This document shows, in pieces, positions 2,943 to 18,038 of a stretch of DNA of 33,641 bases (within the stretch, counting starts at the first letter, position 1; each line of letters begins with the position of its first letter). Source of the stretch: Candidatus Fermentibacterota bacterium (GTDB lineage: Bacteria > JAFGKV01); contig JAUXFG010000031.1 of assembly GCA_030620115.1 (NCBI GenBank), forward strand, positions 1 through 33,641. Direction: 5' to 3'. Under the pieces are notes generated by a model. The model saw only the letters and a program-made list of their open reading frames with translations. It searched no databases and was not told where the DNA came from. Position numbers and translations under genes: made by a program.

Positions 2943-4178
2943 CTATCCGCGGTAGGAGATCCCTGCGAATTCGGTTTCGTACCCCATTCTCATGATCTCC
3001 TTGGCATCCTTGTCACAGCGCACGCATTTGTGGTAAATCACATCGCCGATGAGCGCCGCCTTCTCCTTCCTTTCCTCGTCTGAGAGGAAGTACGCCCCCA
3101 TGGTATCCAGGGGACGAGACTCCCCGTCGCTTTCGTACTTGATGGTGATATTTCGCCCCGCATCGAGCACCTTGTGGGCACTCTTCGTCCAGTTGAAATC
3201 CTCCATGCCGAGATCCGGGTTGATCCTGAGATGAGCGGCCAGCGAGATCCCGGGAATCCCCGAGGCCTCAAGCTCCCGGCTGCACTGAATAAAGGTTTCG
3301 GCCGTGGCTGCGTTACCGATGTTTACCTCGTACAGGGGTGTAGTACCGTCGTCGCGCAGGAACTCTTTCACGATGTTGAGGAGCATCCGGAATAGGATGG
3401 TGTTCTGGGTCGAGAGCAACATGGATATCTTGAATTGAAGATTCGGGATCTCTCTGGCATAGTAACATGCGCCTACAATGGTCGACCAGCTCGGATTCAG
3501 GAAGAAATCGGCGCCTGTAGTGATGGCGGCCCTGGTGACCCCATCAAGATAGACGAGGTGGTTATTGTTGCCGATCTCCACGCCACCGAGATTACCGAAC
3601 GGCGTGCCCATGTTCTTCAGGAGGATCTGACTCAGCCCGTTTCCTAGATCCTTCCTTTCAAAGCGCTCTCCCGTCACGTTCTCGACTCTCGAGAAGCGCT
3701 CTTCAGTAAGGGGGGTTCCGAGGAGATTCGTGGTACAAAACTTACTGGCGCCCATGATATTCTCGGCCATGGCCAGAGTTGCCAGGAGATCGCCGCTATA
3801 GACGTATGCATCGGTCAACCCCACCACGGAGATCATCTCACTGGGGAAGAGTACATCTCCATTCTCCGCCAATCTTCGCATGCAATCCAGCGTGACATAG
3901 GCTCCCTGAAAACCGGAAACCTGGGTGGTGCAGACGGCTCTCCGACTCACGGAGATCTGGTTTTTCTCGAGATAATCCTCCACCTTGGGAAACTTGGCCG
4001 CATAAGTTTCCGCTTGCTCCAGCATCCCCCCAAAGCCCTTATCGCCGGCGATCTTCTTCCTGGTCTCGTACACCCGCATCGACGCAATCCGCTTGGAGAT
4101 TCCATCAGGTCCCCCGTAGGAATCCAACAAGCCATCCAATGCCTTGAGATCGCGATCGCTCAACAGCTTAAAATGCAT
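2943..4178 (-). CDS. Uncharacterised 411-residue cytoplasmic protein
   Basis: I do not recognise this protein. It has no signal peptide or membrane segment, is of even composition, and is well started (AAGGAGGAGAGG just before the ATG). It is rich in GxP, GN and Asn/Thr loop motifs between regular strands and helices, for example GTPFGNLGG near 215 and NIGNAATAET near 287, which gives the look of an alpha/beta enzyme; a barrel fold is only a guess. Near the C-terminus a CVRC pair (C385, C388) after a His could bind metal or form a disulfide. It is the first gene of a minus-strand series leading into SDR, iron ADH and AOR, with gaps of about 72-230 bases holding repeats, so joint expression is possible. 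A role in aldehyde or alcohol conversion is inferred from position only. Confidence 0.75.
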   Translation of the reverse strand: MHFKLLSDRDLKALDGLLDSYGGPDGISKRIASMRVYETRKKIAGDKGFGGMLEQAETYAAKFPKVEDYLEKNQISVSRRAVCTTQVSGFQGAYVTLDCMRRLAENGDVLFPSEMISVVGLTDAYVYSGDLLATLAMAENIMGASKFCTTNLLGTPLTEERFSRVENVTGERFERKDLGNGLSQILLKNMGTPFGNLGGVEIGNNNHLVYLDGVTRAAITTGADFFLNPSWSTIVGACYYAREIPNLQFKISMLLSTQNTILFRMLLNIVKEFLRDDGTTPLYEVNIGNAATAETFIQCSRELEASGIPGISLAAHLRINPDLGMEDFNWTKSAHKVLDAGRNITIKYESDGESRPLDTMGAYFLSDEERKEKAALIGDVIYHKCVRCDKDAKEIMRMGYETEFAGISYRG

Positions 4179-4786: not shown

Positions 4787-5853
4787 TTAGACGATCAGGC
4801 ACAAGAGCTGATCTGCCATCAGAGCAAGTATCCCAAACATCAGATGGGCCATGATTTTTGCGTGGCCTCGCACCCGAACCATCCTCCCACCGAACTCGTC
4901 TTTCAACCGCCCGAATCCTCTCTCTGCGGTACTACGTTCTCTATACCGTAGCTTCTTGGCTGGGTCCAGCTCTTTCTTCTCGCTTCCTCTTGGATTGTGA
5001 TCTGTGATCGCCTTGGCATCATACGCCGAATCCATCACCTCGTACAGAATGGTGTCCAGTCGTTCATTGCTCATCTCTGCCAATGGAATCGCTACTTGGC
5101 CGTCGTGTAATGAGGCCGAGGTGAGAATACAGCTGATAGGGATGCCTCCGTCTGACCAGTCTACGTGGAGTTTGTACCCATTCCATGACTCTGAATACCC
5201 CTTGCTGTTCTTCTTACTCCCTCGATCACACACCTTGGGCAGATCATCCAGCATCTCCTGCAAGGGCATCCCAGCTGCCTGACGTTCCAGTCGAGTCGGT
5301 GGCGGGGGAGGTGGCTCTTCCCCCTTCTTCGGACGTCCAGGTTTGCGCTTTGGCCTGGCTGCTTCCTCCTTCTTGGGCTTCTTCGCCCTCTTCTCCCGTG
5401 CCTCTATTTTGGTGCCGTCTCGGGAGATGTGACATACGATCCTTGACCCCAGGTACATCTTTATGGTCGCCGCATGAACCCTCTGAGGCAACTCGCTCAT
5501 CGCGAATTCTGCAAACGCACGTGAGAACACTGATTCGCTCGGAATCTCCATTCCTTCTCCCAGCCGCATATACGCCGCAGATTCGGGGATGACTCCAATT
5601 GTTCTATCAAGGCGCGCGTCGTCCCAAGGGTGTACACGGACTTGGCAACAAAGGCCCGCACAATGGCTTGACGATCTTTCCGTGGTCGCCCGGGGAGGCC
5701 ACACACCGGCACTGGAACAAACTCCTCCATGCGAATGATCTCAAGAATAGCAATAAGCTTTTGCTGCTTTGCAGTTAGTTGATCCAATACTTCGGCAAGT
5801 TCAGGGAAAAGAGTTCCTTGAATCCTTGCCCATATCTGTGATAGATGTTCCAT
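4787..5853 (-). pseudogene. Frameshifted IS4/IS5-superfamily DDE transposase
   Basis: Two overlapping minus-strand frames together give a transposase of about 355 residues. The first starts at the ATG at 5853 (GGAGGTGA eight bases upstream) and carries the N-terminal domain ending LRRICGWE. The second continues from IPSESVFSRAF to a stop at 4787. The shift lies near 5555; no classical slippery heptamer is visible in register, so a mutation is likelier than programmed frameshifting. Catalytic signatures are otherwise intact: DGTKIEA for the first Asp, VMDSAYDAK for the second, and a textbook Y-x2-R-x3-E-x6-K motif in YRERSTAERGFGRLK. A Lys/Pro-rich linker with a run of prolines sits after the first Asp. 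Terminal repeats flank it. Relationship to IS1182-like elements is from memory; the family assignment is moderate. Confidence 0.82.
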
Positions 5854-6363
5854 TAAGTCACCTCCGGTTACTTCTGATATACAGACAGAAGGTGATACTA
5901 TAACAACTTCTTCATCATTTAGCAAAGAATTTATTAGCTAATTCACGCATTATCAGCGTTATTATGCTTTTGCTTTGTCAAACTATCATTTCCTCGGTAG
6001 GCCGCGACCATCATCCGACTCCAATCATGCCTCTCTCCTCGCAAAACCATCCTCGCGGAGGGGTTTTGCAAGTGGCTCCATCCATAGATTTACTAGAGAT
6101 TTAGAAGAAAAACGAAATTACGGGGAGCTCATGAGCTATTGAGCCCTTCGACTTCTCTCAGGACAGGCCGAGAAGCTGATGAGCAGGGATGCGATGTGAG
6201 AAGTCCGGGTTGACCGGTCTCGCTCTCCGTGCCCCATTCAGTATCCCGATTCTTGCGGGAACAGTCGCGCCAGGCAAGTGGGATCGAATCCCTTGTATCA
6301 TGATCCACTGAGCACCTTATTGAATAGAAGTTATAGCCTATTCCTAGGAGGCCGTTCAGCACC
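5854..6363. other. IS right flank and leader of the SNF2 gene
   Basis: No gene is seen. The first part is the outer end of the IS with a hairpin (6041-6069) and the terminal repeat (to 6103). Next comes a 'gcccttcgac...caggacaggcc' intergenic repeat (about 6145-6171, also near 30870) and a GTGAGAAGTCCGGGT word at 6196-6210. The last bases form the SNF2 leader: AGGAGG at 6346-6351 stands 12 bases before the ATG at 6364, rather far but the only candidate. Promoter words are weak (a TATAGC at 6332 without a good -35). Confidence 0.5.
6041..6069. repeat. Hairpin at the IS right end
   Basis: Stem GCAAAACC / GGTTTTGC, extended after a two-base bulge by CCTC / GAGG around a GCG loop. It lies just inside the right terminal repeat and no T-run follows, so it may be part of the IS end structure rather than a terminator. 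Confidence 0.6.
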
Positions 6364-9300
6364 ATGAAGAAGAGGCGGAAGAAAGGCAAACCACTCTCCC
6401 GGTTGGCGGAATGGGACGTGTTCGAGCAGGAGCTGCGAGAAATTATCGGCACCGAATATCGAGACGAGCAGGGCAAGCTCATCAAGAAAGCCGGGGAGTT
6501 CCCGACGGAGGCAGTTCTGAAGTCGATCGGAAAATACGATCTGGCGAAAACCATCTCCAGATATCACGGTGGTTACCCCGCAACAAGAAAGCGCTTCGGC
6601 TTCCCCGCCCTGCAAAGACCACCTGGATTCTGGAAGGACTTCTCAAATGTTGAACGCGAGCTGCGTGAGATCATTGATCGAGAGGTAACAGACTCCTTAG
6701 GCAAGATCATCAAACCGCGCGGAGAATTCCCCAGCATGAGCGCGCTGCAAGCGGTTCGGAGATGGAGTCTCGTGGGGGCTATTGCCAGATATCATGGGGG
6801 CATGGACGAGGTTCGTCGCAGGATGGGGTTCCCACCGGTGTCACATCTCCGGGGATATTGGAAGGACTGGGAGAAGGTCGAGCGTGAACTGAGATCCCTT
6901 ATCGAGCGCGAGACAAGGGATGAGGCCGGGAAGATAGAGAAAAGAGTCGGAGAGTTTCCGTTGGGCGCCGTGATCCGCGCTTTCGGGGAGAAGGGATTGC
7001 TGAATGGGATTCACACCTATCACGGAGGATTGTCTGCGGCCAGGCGACGTATGGGTTTCAAGGACGGATCGAGACCGCCACGCTATTGGAAGGATTTCAA
7101 GGACCTTGAAGCGCAGCTTCGCGGTATCATTGCCGACGAACTGCGGGATGAAGACGGGAAGGTAATGAAAGCCGAGGGGGAGTTTCCCAGCGCAGGGATG
7201 CTGAGCAGAATCGGGCAGTCGGCACTGGTGGGAGCGATGCGACGTCACGGCGGCATACATGCCGTGAGGAAACGAATGGGTTTCGAGTCTACAAAATGGA
7301 GGGTCGGCTACTGGAGACAGCTCGAAAACGTCAAGACAGAGCTACGCAAGATCATTGGATCCGAGCTGCGTGACCGGAACGGAAACCCGATCAAGAAAGC
7401 CGGGGAGTTTCCCACTGAGGCCATCTTGAAGGAGCAGGGACTCACCGGGATGGTTGCTGCGATTCAACAGCATCATGGAGGTATGCCGACGGTTAGACGT
7501 GCCATGGGCTTTGAGCTGGCGAAGTATAGCCCTGGGCGGTGGCGCGACCTAAGCAGTATTGATCGCGAACTCCGAGCCGTGATAGAAGCCGAGCTTACCG
7601 ATGCGGATGGGAAAACAGTCAAGGCGGCAGGCGAATTCCCAACTCACTCGCACCTCCTGAAAGCAGGAAGAGGAGACCTAGAAAGCGCGCTAAGCCGTCA
7701 CGGAGGAATTGCTTCATTCAGAGACCGGTTGGGCTTCCCGCCCTCAAGAAGTCCCGATGACGATTTGACGAAATTCGAGAATCTTGAACGCAAACTCCGA
7801 GAAGTCATTGCAGGAGAGCTCCGCGGCAAAGATGATGCCCTGATAAAGCGACCAGGCGACTTCCCCACTGCGGGCAGACTGAAAGCCGCCGGCAGGCATG
7901 ATCTGTTGTCTGCGATGTCCAGGCATTTCGGAGGGATGTCAACTGTGCGGGAACGAATGGGGTTCAAACCATCGAGACGGCATCATGGGTATTGGAAGGA
8001 ATTTGCGAACGTCGAGGGGAAATTGATCGAGATCATGGAGAGCGACTGTCGCGATGCCGACGGCAACCTGCTTAGGGTACGGGGCACATTTCCGGGGCCG
8101 AAGGAACTCATGAGAACAGGGAACTCGAGTCTACTCGCAGCCATCAACCGCCACCACGGGGGCATGGTGGCGGTAAGGGCGCGGATTGAGATCACACCGA
8201 TCAAGGGGGATCGGGGCTACTGGAAGGAGTTTGCGAACGTCGAGAAGGAGCTCATCCAGATCATCCGGAATGAGCAGAGAAATGAGCAGGACAATGTTGC
8301 TAAGGAGGCTGGTGAGTTTCCCACGTACGGAGAGTTGCTGAGGATGGGTCGAGGAGACCTGCTCTCGGCCATGCAGGTCCACCACGGCGGGCATCGGGCG
8401 GTGAAGGCGAAGATGGGCTTTTCTCCGGATATGCCCGAGGAAGCGGTGAGCGCCTTTGTGAGGAAGCTCAGGACAGTTGAGGGAGCGGAAGAGCTGGCGC
8501 GCTGTCCGGACCTGTCGGCTGTGGACAAGGCTGATGTTCTTGTTGCGCAGAATCGAGATGTCTTCCTGAGCCCGGCATATGTGGAGTATGCATTGCGGAA
8601 GCTGGAGGATATGCCGTCTTTTTCCCCATACGTGGAAGGAGAGCCGTGGCGGAGGGGGCAGTATCAGACGCATGAGCATTTCGATCAACTGGTCCGCCGG
8701 CGCCCGGACCTCTTCGCCCGGCCCGAACTGCTCGCACTGCTCATCCGCAAACTGGAGAATGTCTACTTCCGCCGCTTCCACGACGCTCCCCAAGAGACGC
8801 TGGCTGAACTAAGGCAGCGTGGCCAAGACGCCGGGCTACTGGCCGAGGCGTATGCCGAAGTGAATGGGAATCTGCGGAAGATGCAGCTGCTCAGAATACC
8901 GGATGCGGTGAGACGAATCAGAAACCCGCATTGGTTTGATGGCAGTGGGTTGGAGCAGATGGTGCTCTTTCCATCCCTGCATCAGAAGCGAGGGATCCTC
9001 AGAATTTTGGAACAGAAACGCGTTCTCATCGCGGATGAGATGGGGACGGGGAAGACGGCCCAGGCGATCTTGGCGAATCTGCTGCTTGCGGAGCGGTTGG
9101 GGAAGAAGATTCGGACCTTGGTGATCTGCCCGAGCTCGGTGATCTCCTGGTGGCGGGAGAAGATAGATGAGTACTGTGAGAACGTCTCAGCCAAAGATGT
9201 GGTAATTCTGGCCGGCGGTGGGTGGCGGCGCGGAGCCATTGAACGGGCGCAAGAGGGAGCCGAGTTCGTGTTGATCAACTACGACTTGCTGTCAAGACAA

Positions 9301-10410
9301 GAGGGAGCGGGTCGGCCGTCTCTGGTGGGAGAGCTGGCAGCCATGGGCCTCGACTATGTGGTCGTAGACGAGGTTCATCATGCGAAGAACATGAACGCCA
9401 ACCGGGCGGAAGCGATCCAGCGGATCACCGAGCGGGTTCCGTATGTGGCGCTCTTGTCCGGCACTCCCATTCCCAACCGGCTCCGGGACATCGGCATGAC
9501 CATGTCTCTGTTGGAGCCTGACCGGTATCCCACGGCCAGGCATTTCCGCGTAGCGTACGGCAATAATCCTCGCTTGATCAGAGACGCGTTGATAAACGGG
9601 CGAATGCTGCGGGTCCGATCAACGGATGTGTTCGAGCTGCCCCAATTGCGGTTTCGAGAAGAGACGGTGCGCCTCATACCCGAACAACGGGACGCTTACC
9701 TGGCTATCTATCGAGACAAAAGGCTCTCCATATACGGCAAGATGGCGCTCCTTCGATTGGTCTTGCTGGATCCCAACACGGTCCCACGCTACGTGACACA
9801 CAGACCGCTTACTTCACCCAAGTATGAGGCCCTGGACCGAATTCTCGAGGAGAAGGTCGACGCTGGAGAGAAGGCGGTGGTCTTTACCTGTTTCAAGCAC
9901 GGGATCACGCGACAAGTGGCCGGGCGGTATGCCCGGTACAATGCCGTGCTCATTGACGGAGATGTCGACCACAAACCCCGTGTTCGGCAAGAGAGTCAGC
10001 GGGAGTTGATCCGGAGAGAGTTCCAGTTCGGGGAGAGCCAAGTCCTCATAGCCACCATAGGCACCATGAGCGAGGGGGTTGATCTCACGGCTGCATCGAC
10101 GGTGGTCTTTCTGGACAAGCCGTTCACCAGCACGGGGAGAGATCAGGCGATAAAGCGGGTGCACCGGCTGGGACAGACAAGACCGGTAGAGGTAGTGAGT
10201 CTGGTGGCCCGTGATCCGGTCATAGCCGAAGAGATTCGAGACCGCGAGACCGGGGATCACGGTACGCTGGATGAAGCCTTGGAACGACTCATCGAGAAGA
10301 AGGAACAGCTCATAGAACAGGTGGTGGACGGCGCCCGACTATCTGAAGAGGAGAAGAAGCTTTTGGAAGAAAAGGAAATCCTCGGGAGGGTGCTCTTCAG
10401 GATCGGATGA
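6364..10410 (+). CDS. SNF2-family ATPase with nine N-terminal 75-residue modules
   Basis: A 1348-residue protein with two parts. Residues 17 to about 690 are nine tandem modules, starting near 17, 89, 165, 241, 316, 392, 468, 543 and 619. Each follows the plan W-K-(D/E)-F, VExELRxII, RDxxGK, GEFPT, a Leu/Gly helix, HHGG and VRxRMGF. They look like small helical units, possibly nucleic-acid binding (inference). A linker (about 690-880) repeats a hairpin: 'RDVFLSP..LRKLE' and 'PDLFARP..LIRKLE'. The rest is a superfamily 2 Swi2/Snf2 motor: motif I DEMGTGKT (891-898), DEVH (1002-1005), LSGTP (1031-1035) and HRLGQTR (1267-1273). It should hydrolyse ATP and translocate on nucleic acid. It lies between IS-end repeats and overlaps the next gene by ATGA. 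No nuclease or methylase domain is seen. Its biological role is unknown. Confidence 0.9.
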   Translation: MKKRRKKGKPLSRLAEWDVFEQELREIIGTEYRDEQGKLIKKAGEFPTEAVLKSIGKYDLAKTISRYHGGYPATRKRFGFPALQRPPGFWKDFSNVERELREIIDREVTDSLGKIIKPRGEFPSMSALQAVRRWSLVGAIARYHGGMDEVRRRMGFPPVSHLRGYWKDWEKVERELRSLIERETRDEAGKIEKRVGEFPLGAVIRAFGEKGLLNGIHTYHGGLSAARRRMGFKDGSRPPRYWKDFKDLEAQLRGIIADELRDEDGKVMKAEGEFPSAGMLSRIGQSALVGAMRRHGGIHAVRKRMGFESTKWRVGYWRQLENVKTELRKIIGSELRDRNGNPIKKAGEFPTEAILKEQGLTGMVAAIQQHHGGMPTVRRAMGFELAKYSPGRWRDLSSIDRELRAVIEAELTDADGKTVKAAGEFPTHSHLLKAGRGDLESALSRHGGIASFRDRLGFPPSRSPDDDLTKFENLERKLREVIAGELRGKDDALIKRPGDFPTAGRLKAAGRHDLLSAMSRHFGGMSTVRERMGFKPSRRHHGYWKEFANVEGKLIEIMESDCRDADGNLLRVRGTFPGPKELMRTGNSSLLAAINRHHGGMVAVRARIEITPIKGDRGYWKEFANVEKELIQIIRNEQRNEQDNVAKEAGEFPTYGELLRMGRGDLLSAMQVHHGGHRAVKAKMGFSPDMPEEAVSAFVRKLRTVEGAEELARCPDLSAVDKADVLVAQNRDVFLSPAYVEYALRKLEDMPSFSPYVEGEPWRRGQYQTHEHFDQLVRRRPDLFARPELLALLIRKLENVYFRRFHDAPQETLAELRQRGQDAGLLAEAYAEVNGNLRKMQLLRIPDAVRRIRNPHWFDGSGLEQMVLFPSLHQKRGILRILEQKRVLIADEMGTGKTAQAILANLLLAERLGKKIRTLVICPSSVISWWREKIDEYCENVSAKDVVILAGGGWRRGAIERAQEGAEFVLINYDLLSRQEGAGRPSLVGELAAMGLDYVVVDEVHHAKNMNANRAEAIQRITERVPYVALLSGTPIPNRLRDIGMTMSLLEPDRYPTARHFRVAYGNNPRLIRDALINGRMLRVRSTDVFELPQLRFREETVRLIPEQRDAYLAIYRDKRLSIYGKMALLRLVLLDPNTVPRYVTHRPLTSPKYEALDRILEEKVDAGEKAVVFTCFKHGITRQVAGRYARYNAVLIDGDVDHKPRVRQESQRELIRREFQFGESQVLIATIGTMSEGVDLTAASTVVFLDKPFTSTGRDQAIKRVHRLGQTRPVEVVSLVARDPVIAEEIRDRETGDHGTLDEALERLIEKKEQLIEQVVDGARLSEEEKKLLEEKEILGRVLFRIG

Positions 10411-12407
10411 TCAAGCTGAGACCGGCAAATGGGAGCGAAGATTCCACCAATGTCCTCTGGAAGGCGTTGGGACCGTGCACGCTTGGTCTGGATCTGACAT
10501 TCAATGAGTCCATGGGGTTTGAGCAGGTAGGTTTTCCCTCGGTCTCCCCGCAAGATCCAACCGTGAAGCTGGTCTTGACCAATGATACTGAGCTGACCTT
10601 GAGCGGGAATCCCGGCGGTGATACCGATTGGCCCTACATCTTCAAGATTGACAAAGACACATGGCACGGAACCGTGGAGCTCGACGCGGCCGCTGCAGCT
10701 CAGTCAGCGGGTGACATACGACTGCGCATCTCAGGAACGGTAGACATGGCGGGGGATACGCTGGACTGGGACCTGTCGACCCCTGGTGCGCAATCGTATG
10801 AGTACCCCTTGACTATGCCTGGTTTTAGACCACATCCCGATGATCCTGACGCAGGGGTGATTCGCAACACCACTGCGTCAGGCGATTCCACGTGGCCGCT
10901 GGGGTGGGCTGGCCTTCTCGTCAATGCCCGCGGATTCCATACAGAGGCAAGTGATCCACTCTCGATACAAGACATGAAGATATGGATCCGGGATATGGAC
11001 GCAGACACGACGTTGGTGAATGGGATCTCCATGACTCAGTATGATCGCGACTTCAAGTACGCTTGGGGTACGGAGAACGATCCCTATTGGGATGGGAGAC
11101 GTGAAGTGACCGTCAAGGCGTACAATCTGATCAGTCAGATACTCACCGATTTCACTCGCAATATCGTCATAGACAATTCCCCACCCATAGCCCAGAAGGT
11201 GGAACTCCGGAACATCTGGCCAGGGGACACCGGCTCGGATACCACCATTATCCGGAAGGCAGAATGGATAGATCATCCCACGGATCCGGCGTTGCGTCAG
11301 TTGGAGATCGAGACGCAGCGATCGATGACGCTCGATACGCTCGAAATCGTGGTACAGTTCGATCAGACGCAGGACAGAGACTCGTTGGAGGTCAAGACAT
11401 CGTATATGGTCCCTGGCGGGCTCAGCCCGCTTTTCAATGAGGTGAGGTGGGACAGCACGATCAGTCCGGATGACACGTGGGTCGGGCGCTGCGCCATTGT
11501 TATGTCATCAGGGATGAGAGATACCTATCCCGGCAGGTGGATAGTAACAATCAAGAGCGCCGATCTTGCAGGGAATTCCATCGACGCCAAAGCGGAGACG
11601 AAAGCATACAGAGACAGTCTCGGCAGCTTTGTGGGCTACGAAGATACTGGAGCGGACTCCACGCACTCCTGGTGGCTACAGAGTTGGTTCGACATAAACA
11701 TCGCGGGGGATGTGAGTCAGAGCCTGATCTTGGGTTGGAATGCTCAAGGAATGTATGTTGCCGACCGCATCCTGGAGTTGGCTCAAATCGAGCATTCGGA
11801 CAGCTCACGAGCCGATCTGTGGCGTGCGTCCGTCTGGCGATTCTTCGGATCAACGACAGCAGATATCGGCATAGTAGAGCAGTTGGCTGATGTAGGAGGA
11901 ACGCTGACTCAGGCGCGATCTGCGTTGGCAGGTCTGTGGGCCGGGGCTTCGGGGTGGATGATGTGCAGCGAACAATCCGCCGTGATCGAAAGCTTGATGG
12001 CATATGGCAGCAAGGGTAAACCGCGCAATTACGTGCTCATCTCGGACACGCAGATGAATAGAGGCCCATCGCGAAGAGAGCAAACGGCAATATGGGCTGC
12101 CGCGGCTTCTGACAGTACGCACGGATGTCCGACACATCTGTATACGGTAATGCCGGAGGAATATGCGGCAATATCCGGAGAGCTTGGGGATATTGTGGCG
12201 AGGAGCGGGGGCATGAATGCAATGGCTCCGTCCGATTCCATGTATTGGCGTTCGACTGTGGGCCGTGTTCTATTCAACCTTATCCGCGACAACTCAAGGC
12301 TGTACATGGCTCAAGCTGAGAGTGCCCGAGGGATCAGAGAAGATCATTGGTTCCATATCGACGAGTTGGAAACATCGATACGCTGGATCAAGAGCTTGAG
12401 ATCATAG
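10407..12407 (+). CDS. Secreted-type Ig-like protein with vWA-like end, lacking signal peptide
   Basis: A 666-residue reading frame whose composition (Asp/Thr/Ser/Trp-rich beta segments) is that of an extracellular protein. Ig-like stretches are visible, such as VTVKAYN and NIVIDNSPPIAQ near 230-260 and IVTIKSADLAGNS near 375-390. The last third resembles a degenerate von Willebrand A region with NYVLISDTQMN but no DxSxS metal motif. No signal peptide is present: the frame begins directly at an ATG overlapping the SNF2 stop (ATGA) with only a distant GGGAGGG upstream. Its 3' end overlaps the next frame by 61 bases. The simplest reading is that this is the middle of a larger secreted protein that lost its 5' end and was then split by a frameshift. 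A genuine coupled partner of the ATPase is possible but less likely. Confidence 0.6.
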   Translation: MIKLRPANGSEDSTNVLWKALGPCTLGLDLTFNESMGFEQVGFPSVSPQDPTVKLVLTNDTELTLSGNPGGDTDWPYIFKIDKDTWHGTVELDAAAAAQSAGDIRLRISGTVDMAGDTLDWDLSTPGAQSYEYPLTMPGFRPHPDDPDAGVIRNTTASGDSTWPLGWAGLLVNARGFHTEASDPLSIQDMKIWIRDMDADTTLVNGISMTQYDRDFKYAWGTENDPYWDGRREVTVKAYNLISQILTDFTRNIVIDNSPPIAQKVELRNIWPGDTGSDTTIIRKAEWIDHPTDPALRQLEIETQRSMTLDTLEIVVQFDQTQDRDSLEVKTSYMVPGGLSPLFNEVRWDSTISPDDTWVGRCAIVMSSGMRDTYPGRWIVTIKSADLAGNSIDAKAETKAYRDSLGSFVGYEDTGADSTHSWWLQSWFDINIAGDVSQSLILGWNAQGMYVADRILELAQIEHSDSSRADLWRASVWRFFGSTTADIGIVEQLADVGGTLTQARSALAGLWAGASGWMMCSEQSAVIESLMAYGSKGKPRNYVLISDTQMNRGPSRREQTAIWAAAASDSTHGCPTHLYTVMPEEYAAISGELGDIVARSGGMNAMAPSDSMYWRSTVGRVLFNLIRDNSRLYMAQAESARGIREDHWFHIDELETSIRWIKSLRS

Positions 12408-13807
12408 TCGGCGCCAGGGATGGTTCAGGGACCCTCTACTGTCTGAATCCGGACGCAAGCGCAGTAGCCGGATGGCCCATAACGCTGGGCAGTCAAATAG
12501 AGTCCGCCCCCACGCTGGCGGACCTGGATTCACCTCCTAACGGTGATCTCGAGGTAATCGTGGCCTGTGGCAGCCAGGTTCATGTGAGACGAAGCGATGG
12601 TACGGTGTTTCCGGGGTGGCCTCAAACCATAGGATGCGCGAATGTATTGTTCACGAGCCCTTGTGTTGCAAATTTTGAGAACTCAGATGAAGAATTGGAG
12701 ATCGCAGTATGCGGAGGCACCGATACACTCTACGTATTCAACGCCACGGGATCTCTGGAATGGAAGGAACGAGTCATCGGCAATTTTGTTTGGGCGCCGC
12801 TTTCCTGCGGGGACCTTGATTGGGACGGGGCACCTGAGATCCTTGTGCAGACCTGGCACGCGAGCCAGTCACGGCTTTACGCGTTCAAGGGAGACGGCAC
12901 GGCCCCGGCGGGATGGGAAACACCTATCCAGGTCGGGCTCCAGGCTCGGTCAGGAGCTGCATTAGGGGACCTGGATGGAGACGGTCGTTTAGAGGTTTTG
13001 GTAGGCGACGGCAACTTTGGGTATGTGTATGGCTATGCATCCAATGGGACTGCGCTCCCCGGCGCGTGGAGCAGCGGAGTTCCCATAGCGTCAAGGGTGT
13101 ACTCGCCACTCTGTTTGGCCGACCTTGACGGCAGTGGGTCATGCAGTGTTATCGTGTTGGGCATCAATAACGACAAAATGAATGTGGTGGACCAGAACGG
13201 GATGGTCTTGGAATCGTGGAGCCGGGCGCTGGACGGAGATTGCTATGGGGCTCCTTGCATCGCAGATATTGATCTCGATGGGGACACAGAGATTCTTCTC
13301 GGGACGGACGCGGGCACGGTATTTTGTTTTGACTTCGGAGGGACTTACAGTCCGCTTCGTTTGGAGTATCCGAAGTTCCAGGCCGACCTTGGAAACACGG
13401 GCAGGTACACTGAAGAAATCCCTCCCCAGCCGCCGACTGTTGAAACCATCGAGGTAGTGAACGGAGATGAACTTCAACTGACGTGGAATACTGTATCCAC
13501 CGACTCCCTTTCCCGTCAGGAGCTAGTCACGACCTACAGGATCTACCGTGGGACAGATGCGTATTTCGATGTAGGCACGGGCAGTCTGCTCGGCTCTGTA
13601 TCCAGACCGGAGACCACGTTCGTTGACGTCACCACGGGTATTGTGGGAGACGGAAGCACCAACTACTCCTATGCGGTGACCGCACTGGACCAGCACGGCA
13701 ACGAGTCACAGGCCTCGAATCGCATTGGCGAGCATGACTTCACGTCCAGTGGGCGCAGCCGAGAAGGCGAGAGGGATCGAAAGCAGCTTCGTCCTCGATC
13801 CAGATAG
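12347..13807 (+). CDS. FG-GAP beta-propeller plus fibronectin-III protein (probably continuation of preceding frame)
   Basis: Up to 486 residues; the real coding starts within 12347-12407. FG-GAP/VCBS-like blades repeat with DLDGDG-type calcium loops, for example LADLDSP, GDLDWDGAPEILV, GDLDGDGRLEVLV, LADLDGSG and ADIDLDGDTEILL. A fibronectin type III-like domain follows at about 365-460 (PPTVETIEVV, TYRIYRG, NYSYAVTALD). These are surface or secreted modules, yet there is no signal peptide and no ribosome site at the ATG at 12347; the first blade already begins within the overlap with the previous frame. I therefore read it as the second half of one broken gene. The last 20 or so residues are Arg/Ser-rich and unlike the rest, and the stop lies 22 bases before the palindrome at 13829, so the 3' end also appears disturbed. 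Confidence 0.65.
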   Translation: MVPYRRVGNIDTLDQELEIIVGARDGSGTLYCLNPDASAVAGWPITLGSQIESAPTLADLDSPPNGDLEVIVACGSQVHVRRSDGTVFPGWPQTIGCANVLFTSPCVANFENSDEELEIAVCGGTDTLYVFNATGSLEWKERVIGNFVWAPLSCGDLDWDGAPEILVQTWHASQSRLYAFKGDGTAPAGWETPIQVGLQARSGAALGDLDGDGRLEVLVGDGNFGYVYGYASNGTALPGAWSSGVPIASRVYSPLCLADLDGSGSCSVIVLGINNDKMNVVDQNGMVLESWSRALDGDCYGAPCIADIDLDGDTEILLGTDAGTVFCFDFGGTYSPLRLEYPKFQADLGNTGRYTEEIPPQPPTVETIEVVNGDELQLTWNTVSTDSLSRQELVTTYRIYRGTDAYFDVGTGSLLGSVSRPETTFVDVTTGIVGDGSTNYSYAVTALDQHGNESQASNRIGEHDFTSSGRSREGERDRKQLRPRSR

Positions 13808-16715: not shown

Positions 16716-16781
16716 CTGAACGCCTACGAATACTAGATACCGGGCCAGCGGGTCGGAATGGCGGCCGGGGGAGGAGAGTCG

Positions 16782-18038
16782 ATGCGCGCGAGAGCTTTTT
16801 TTATACTCATCTGCGTGATGATTGTGCAGAGCTCGTGTCATAGGGCAGGAGGGCTCACCCTGGCACAATTGGAGGCGCAGCTCAAAGATATGGAAGCCCA
16901 GGCAGTGGGAGAGGCATTGCGTGATCTTTTTCCCGCTTCCGAGGGGTGGGTGGTCTTGCCTGAGGCGCCAAAACCACATTCGTGGCCTGATTCCCTCCGG
17001 TTTTGGCTTGAGGCCCCCAGGGTCGTATGCCATGATAGTCTCCCACCCGACGCCTGGACAAGATTTCTTGGAAGACCGGGGCAGGTGGAATTCGTGGATG
17101 TGACCGGCTACCTGGCGACGCCCAGAAATCAGACACCTATGGGATTCAGGGGGTTTGTAGTACAGTTCAAAGTCAAGGGGATCGAATCCACGGCCCTCTT
17201 GGTTGGCTCAACCGGGATGCGGTGGTTGGTGTGGCTCGAGTATGCTTCCGGATTCCCCGGGACCGTCATGTATCCTGGTGAGCTGGACAGTCTTGGGTTG
17301 GCGGTTTCGGGCTGGTTGGCATCCCAGCCCGAAGAGCGAGAGACCATGTCGCTCCCCGTAGGATTTTTTTCGGAAGTCGGTCTGTTTCCACCCTGCCCCG
17401 CCACGTGTGTTGACCAGAATACGCTCTATGAAACCGCCCTCAGGCATTCCATGACCGGAGGAGCAGGCATGGAGGGATTGCGGCCCGATCTCGAAGCCGG
17501 GCAGAGGATCATCCGCGAAGCGCCCAGCTCCTTACTGCAGCACCAAGAACCATTCCTGCTGCAGAGACGACTGGAAATGATGGAGAACGCTGGATGGCCG
17601 GGCTTCCACCTCTCATATGCCGCTGTGCGCGGACTCGAGTCAGGAATCTACCTCTGGGCTGCTGGTCCGTTTGGTCAAGTGAGGGCTATGGCTATCGAGC
17701 GAGCGGACTCTTTGCCCGAAAGCGCATTGAGTATCGGACCATCTGTCCTTTTCTATGGAAGGCCGCTTCGAGGGGTTGGGACGTTCTCGATTGAATCTGG
17801 TCCCTCTGGGTCGTATGGGCGCGAGATTGATGCTTTTCCTTGGGAGTATGGCCTCTCGCCATACGTTGAAGGGAGCCTGCAGATGTTCCATGGAGAGATA
17901 TTCTTCAGTCGGATCGGATGGATTCTTGGGTTTTCCCCTGGGCCTCGGGAAGGCTATTCATGGCCACACTTGCGTACGCTCCCGGGAGAGAATCCGAGCC
18001 TTTCCCTGTGGCTGCCTATTCCCGAGAATGGCCGGTGA
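16782..18038 (+). CDS. Putative lipoprotein of unknown function
   Basis: A 418-residue protein I do not recognise. The N-terminus from the ATG at 16782 (MRARAFFILICVMIVQSSC) is a short signal peptide; C19 could be lipidated, but the lipobox QSSC lacks the usual Leu/Val at -3, so plain secretion is also possible. The mature part is rich in Trp, Pro and Gly, without clear repeats or membrane segments. GGAGGAGAG precedes this ATG, whereas the upstream ATG at 16758 has no ribosome site. Two Cys (CPATC, near 205-210) may form a disulfide. The gene is followed by aroQ after about 120 bases. An overlapping second frame near the 3' end (17918-18118) also looks partly protein-like; I could not decide whether a frameshift is present. 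Confidence 0.75.
   Translation: MRARAFFILICVMIVQSSCHRAGGLTLAQLEAQLKDMEAQAVGEALRDLFPASEGWVVLPEAPKPHSWPDSLRFWLEAPRVVCHDSLPPDAWTRFLGRPGQVEFVDVTGYLATPRNQTPMGFRGFVVQFKVKGIESTALLVGSTGMRWLVWLEYASGFPGTVMYPGELDSLGLAVSGWLASQPEERETMSLPVGFFSEVGLFPPCPATCVDQNTLYETALRHSMTGGAGMEGLRPDLEAGQRIIREAPSSLLQHQEPFLLQRRLEMMENAGWPGFHLSYAAVRGLESGIYLWAAGPFGQVRAMAIERADSLPESALSIGPSVLFYGRPLRGVGTFSIESGPSGSYGREIDAFPWEYGLSPYVEGSLQMFHGEIFFSRIGWILGFSPGPREGYSWPHLRTLPGENPSLSLWLPIPENGR

Follow-up and report, generated by a model that had tools for sequence, protein, structure and literature searches.

A Snf2 family ATPase gene with nine HEAR-like modules in Candidatus Fermentibacterota: a candidate accessory double-stranded DNA translocase

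Gene layout and genomic setting

We analyzed a window of 33,641 nucleotides, which is the whole of one contig from the 4.1 Mb genome of a Candidatus Fermentibacterota bacterium (296 contigs, 98% complete). The features are summarized in Table 1. The gene under study is an open reading frame (ORF) that stays open across 1348 codons from an ATG start, and an AGGAGG ribosome-binding site lies shortly 5' of the ATG. Nine tandem modules, a linker of 174 residues and a C-terminal motor make up its product. Domain and defense-model searches detected no nuclease, methylase or toxin domain in the protein, in agreement with the initial annotation of this DNA.

Table 1. Positions of the features in the window.
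Feature	Position	Strand	Residues	Basis or remark
ORF	2943..4178	-	411 in total	no Pfam match
Degenerate IS5/IS1182-type transposase gene, frame broken, upstream	4787..5925	-		domain and frame reading
ORF, module array + linker + Snf2 motor	6364..10410	+	1348 in total	ORF reading, Pfam matches
Module 1	6388..6615	+	9-84
Module 2	6616..6843	+	85-160
Module 3	6844..7071	+	161-236
Module 4	7072..7296	+	237-311
Module 5	7297..7524	+	312-387
Module 6	7525..7749	+	388-462
Module 7	7750..7977	+	463-538
Module 8	7978..8205	+	539-614	most degenerate (GTFP; RIEI replaces RMGF)
Module 9	8206..8433	+	615-690
Linker	8434..8955	+	691-864	no match in Pfam or PDB sequences
Snf2/SF2 motor	8956..10371	+	865-1336	full helicase motif set
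3' debris of secreted subtilase-type gene, downstream	10407..12407	+		homology from 10440
Remains of the subtilase-type gene, whole extent	10407..13807	+		includes the next ORF
ORF	16758..18038	+	426 in total	no Pfam match

The downstream ORF overlaps the stop of the Snf2 gene by 4 nt. Its homologues are secreted proteins of 1400–1650 residues, which are encoded by whole ORFs in the same-family genomes. In one of these homologues the subtilase domain occupies residues 114–383, and the similarity to the downstream ORF begins only at residue 501. The ORF that follows is a frameshifted continuation with FG-GAP repeats. An operon or translational coupling with the downstream ORF was therefore rejected, because that ORF is 5'-truncated and frameshifted protease debris; the Snf2 gene is thus left without an operon partner, and the 4-nt overlap is probably accidental. 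By these alignments, the Snf2 gene and the IS remnant stand where the protease gene should have its 5' half, which marks them as an accessory insertion. The base composition of the Snf2 gene region is the same as that of its flanks.

Module array and Snf2 motor

The nine modules are 75–76 residues long, and the G[E/D/T]FP motif recurs along the array at spacings of 76, 76, 76, 75, 76, 75, 76 and 76 residues. When each module in turn was left out, the profile built from the rest recognized it with 78–99 bits (E 2e-23 to 6e-30), against a best score of 10 bits among 999 shuffles of the modules. The nine regular modules of the initial annotation are confirmed by these scores, with a period slightly tighter than its 72–76 residues. 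The pairwise identity between modules was 29–49%. At fourfold-degenerate sites the identity between modules was 0.263, against 0.275 expected from composition, which indicates saturation, and the identities at codon positions 1 and 2 were 0.551 and 0.603, respectively. These results indicate that the array descends from old duplications and that the protein frame of every module was kept by selection across all nine. The saturated fourfold sites rule out a recent repeat expansion.

AlphaFold2 predicted, for each module, a first helix, a small hairpin and then three helices. The single-module model reached a pLDDT of 83 and a pTM of 0.67, and the three-module model a pLDDT of 77 and a pTM of 0.41; the orientation of the modules to one another in the latter is unreliable. 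A Foldseek search of the module models against the PDB found no similar fold and matched no HNH_repeat structure. In BFVD, two uncharacterized siphovirus proteins, A0A8S5S295 (E 0.015) and A0A8S5SVB1 (E 0.05), resemble the three-module model.

The array carries a net charge of +33 and the linker one of −2; modules 6 and 9 are almost neutral. In module numbering, the basic residues R17, R25, K33, R67 and R69 are almost invariant, and entropy is highest at positions 22, 34, 41, 43, 45, 47, 50, 57 and 64, which involve all the helices. A TALE- or PPR-like code, with one or two hypervariable positions in a constant module, was not found: at least 8 positions vary, spread over all helices. Such a pattern is what general surface divergence would give, and it neither supports nor excludes sequence reading.

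With regard to the motor, SNF2-rel_dom (PF00176, 3.7e-23) and Helicase_C (PF00271, 1.2e-12) were matched in Pfam, and motifs I (ADEMGTGKT), Ia, II (VVDEVHH), III (LSGTPIPN), IV, V and VI (QAIKRVHRLGQ) were all present. By these motifs the protein is classified as a Snf2 family ATPase with two RecA lobes and Snf2-type motifs I–VI, and the complete Swi2/Snf2 motor of the initial annotation stands. The motor is divergent: across 386 genomes, its identity to motors from beyond its own family reaches about 30–34% at most, and the motors fetched from that set carried neither the module nor HNH_repeat. The motor also matched phrog_62 (3.5e-80, 274 bits). A phage origin was rejected, because this match is generic: six of seven bacterial Snf2 controls scored higher, at 319–404 bits. 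Membership of Zorya, DISARM or Dpd was likewise rejected. The defense models matched the motor only, ZorD with 48 bits against a cut-off of 1500 and DrmD with 51 against 610; these scores are below one tenth of the cut-offs, and the neighboring genes are unrelated.

Relatives of the modules and distribution

No Pfam model detected the modules. A match of one module to DUF6964 (E 0.005 over 14 residues) was taken as chance. The sole sequence relatives found by tblastn were three modules in the plasmid protein WP_015211581 of Allocoleopsis franciscana PCC 7113 (E 8e-17), which is annotated as 'ATPase subunit of terminase, gpP-like'; hhalign related these modules to our modules at 99%. Their gene sits after a recombinase gene on the plasmid.

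We then compared a profile of our own and the cyanobacterial modules with one of 24 HNH_repeat (PF18780) units gathered from the genomes sampled. The two were collinear at a probability of 92% and a score of 33.8, which none of 150 column shuffles reached (maximum, 17.1); the reversed profile scored 9.2. The similarity is limited to 43 columns, which correspond to helices 2–4 in the C-terminal half of the module. The PF18780 model itself matched no module at E 10 and nothing else in G000 either. The profile comparison hence points to a remote kinship with HNH_repeat and not to family membership. HA-domain (PF03457) membership was rejected at a profile probability of 0.3%, a weak test with three HA sequences only; G000 contains no HA domain match.

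The profile search proposed in the initial annotation led from the module to three cyanobacterial modules and, remotely, to HNH_repeat, and from the linker to no match in Pfam or PDB sequences. The annotation had held that its reading would fall if the modules were assigned to a well-characterized family of known role; this came about by half, since the link is remote and HNH_repeat is itself hardly characterized in the literature searched. Among the HNH_repeat units sampled, some adjoin an HNH nuclease (L058), and type IV restriction helicases (L060 in G112 and L061 in G120) contain a single HNH_repeat-like unit, flanked by Helicase_C on one side and DUF3427 on the other. A protein of 523 residues (L063, G122) consists of about eight HNH_repeat-like units and adjoins serine recombinase genes.

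The combination of the array and a Snf2 motor was found in no other protein of the collections searched, and none of the libraries searched held a described bacterial Snf2 system of this layout, as the initial annotation had supposed. One intact copy of the gene is known. The lineage is thinly sampled, and two same-family genomes were compared. G001 retains no more of the motor than its C-terminal third, with 68% identity, and no modules were found there; an IS transposase gene (L016, G001:C63, 294–1912) stands beside this partial Snf2 gene, the remainder of which is absent. G002 had neither modules nor the motor gene. The module profile gave no further matches in 386 bacterial genomes, phage searches gave no module relatives, and plasmid searches gave none apart from the one cyanobacterial record. 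A pattern scan of GTDB returned nine matches, none of them with the module. Scans of viral contigs with the protein and with a four-module pattern found no relatives, an absence that weighs little as these scans had no positive control.

Proposed role and comparison with known systems

An accessory double-stranded DNA translocase that is held on DNA by the HEAR-like array is the best explanation of these data, and we assign it a probability of about 0.5. The nine basic HEAR-like modules at the N-terminus would lie along DNA and hold or position the protein, and the C-terminal Snf2 motor would then move on double-stranded DNA with the strands unopened. The motor could thereby push off or remodel a bound protein while the DNA stays covalently undamaged; what it would displace is a matter of conjecture. 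ATP-driven translocation is attributed to the motor by analogy with the Snf2 family. A nucleic-acid-binding role of the array is made likelier by the HNH_repeat kinship, the HTH-bearing cyanobacterial relatives and the charge of +33, from which we infer that the array binds DNA. Of the modular recognition array in the initial annotation, nucleic-acid binding thus gained ground and a readable code did not. Sequence-specific binding is conjectural, and the proposal that the nine modules together recognize one long site on the DNA and bring the non-cutting motor to it, as a protein-only targeted remodeller or roadblock remover, is doubtful. The gene could also be a recent resident with no function needed by the host.

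An anti-phage or anti-plasmid factor, in which the array recognizes a particular sequence of invading DNA, where the motor would then halt or strip off transcription or replication machinery, is a possible but unlikely alternative. The motor falls in the Snf2 group that includes ZorD, DrmD and DpdE, type IV restriction helicases carry HNH_repeat units, and the gene is accessory and IS-flanked, as is frequent for defense genes. However, the defense-model matches are confined to the motor and lie far under the cut-offs, and neither a second defense gene near the Snf2 gene, a nuclease, a two-position code nor a homologue with a rearranged array was found. The sequence-guided defense or genome maintenance considered in the initial annotation gained no evidence of its own, with neither a defense partner nor an operon.

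Also doubtful, and somewhat more so, is cargo or an accessory gene of a mobile element, of the homing or recombinase type, with an array that binds the element's own sites. HNH_repeat is named after homing endonucleases, the eight-unit array and the cyanobacterial module gene both neighbor recombinase genes, the Snf2 gene, with an IS remnant at its side, takes the position where a subtilase gene should have its 5' half, and the relative in G001 is IS-broken. Around the Snf2 gene, however, neither a recombinase nor terminal repeats nor the ends of an element were found, and the IS remnant is broken and differs in type from the IS in G001.

It is very unlikely that the protein recycles transcription complexes in the manner of RapA, a bacterial Snf2 protein with RNA polymerase as its target, and that its array binds protein or RNA such as RNA polymerase or nascent transcripts. 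Over the motor, the RapA model scored weakly, at 50 bits where its cut-off is 576, and 8so8 was also matched, but such a match is generic for Snf2 proteins and the N- and C-terminal domains of RapA are absent; the strongly basic array and the HTH-bearing relatives point to nucleic acid instead. A decaying passenger with no present function is highly improbable: the neighbors are pseudogenes (a broken transposase frame and protease debris), the G001 relative is broken and G002 lacks the gene, but the 1348 codons are open, all motor motifs are intact, the ribosome-binding site is good, and selection on the modules lasted long enough to saturate the fourfold sites.

If the array of the proposed translocase binds DNA site-specifically, the protein would represent a natural translocase that is targeted but leaves DNA uncut, and it would offer the first functional handle on HEAR-type repeats. 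These repeats occur widely alongside homing and restriction enzymes and are nearly undescribed in the literature searched. If binding is unspecific, the protein would still present a domain architecture new to the Snf2 proteins of bacteria, and its repeats a family that has not been described.

The protein has all its motor motifs in common with Snf2 family ATPases (solved relatives CHD1L, ISWI and Sulfolobus Snf2, 1z63), and differs from them in bearing the N-terminal array instead of known accessory domains. Its likeness to the defense Snf2 helicases ZorD, DrmD and DpdE is in the motor only; it has no ZorA/B/C, DISARM or Dpd partners and no nuclease. HA domain helicases, which combine an SF2 motor with tandem predicted nucleic-acid-binding helical repeats of about 65 residues, follow a similar general plan, but their repeats have no profile similarity to the modules. 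The cyanobacterial protein shares the pattern GYWxDF ... MPx..L...G...L..AI..HGG...VAxRLG with the modules. Its three modules, of 66–68 residues, lack the hairpin insert, about 9 residues long, that separates helix 1 from the GEFP motif; they are placed behind HTH domains, and a motor is absent. Repeats of the GYW...HGG type also occur in plants and algae. In the sampled genomes, no Snf2 motor was seen to be preceded by HNH_repeat (homing endonuclease associated repeat, HEAR). The tandem helical units of this repeat, of about 55–60 residues, follow the pattern W-helix-G-P/L-helix-(A..+.FG.W)-helix-(A...G), which is collinear with module helices 2–4, whereas the modules are 75–76 residues long, have a hairpin inserted behind their first helix and carry HGG where HNH_repeat has FG-W. 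Both form arrays, and HNH_repeat units stand beside DNA-acting enzymes.
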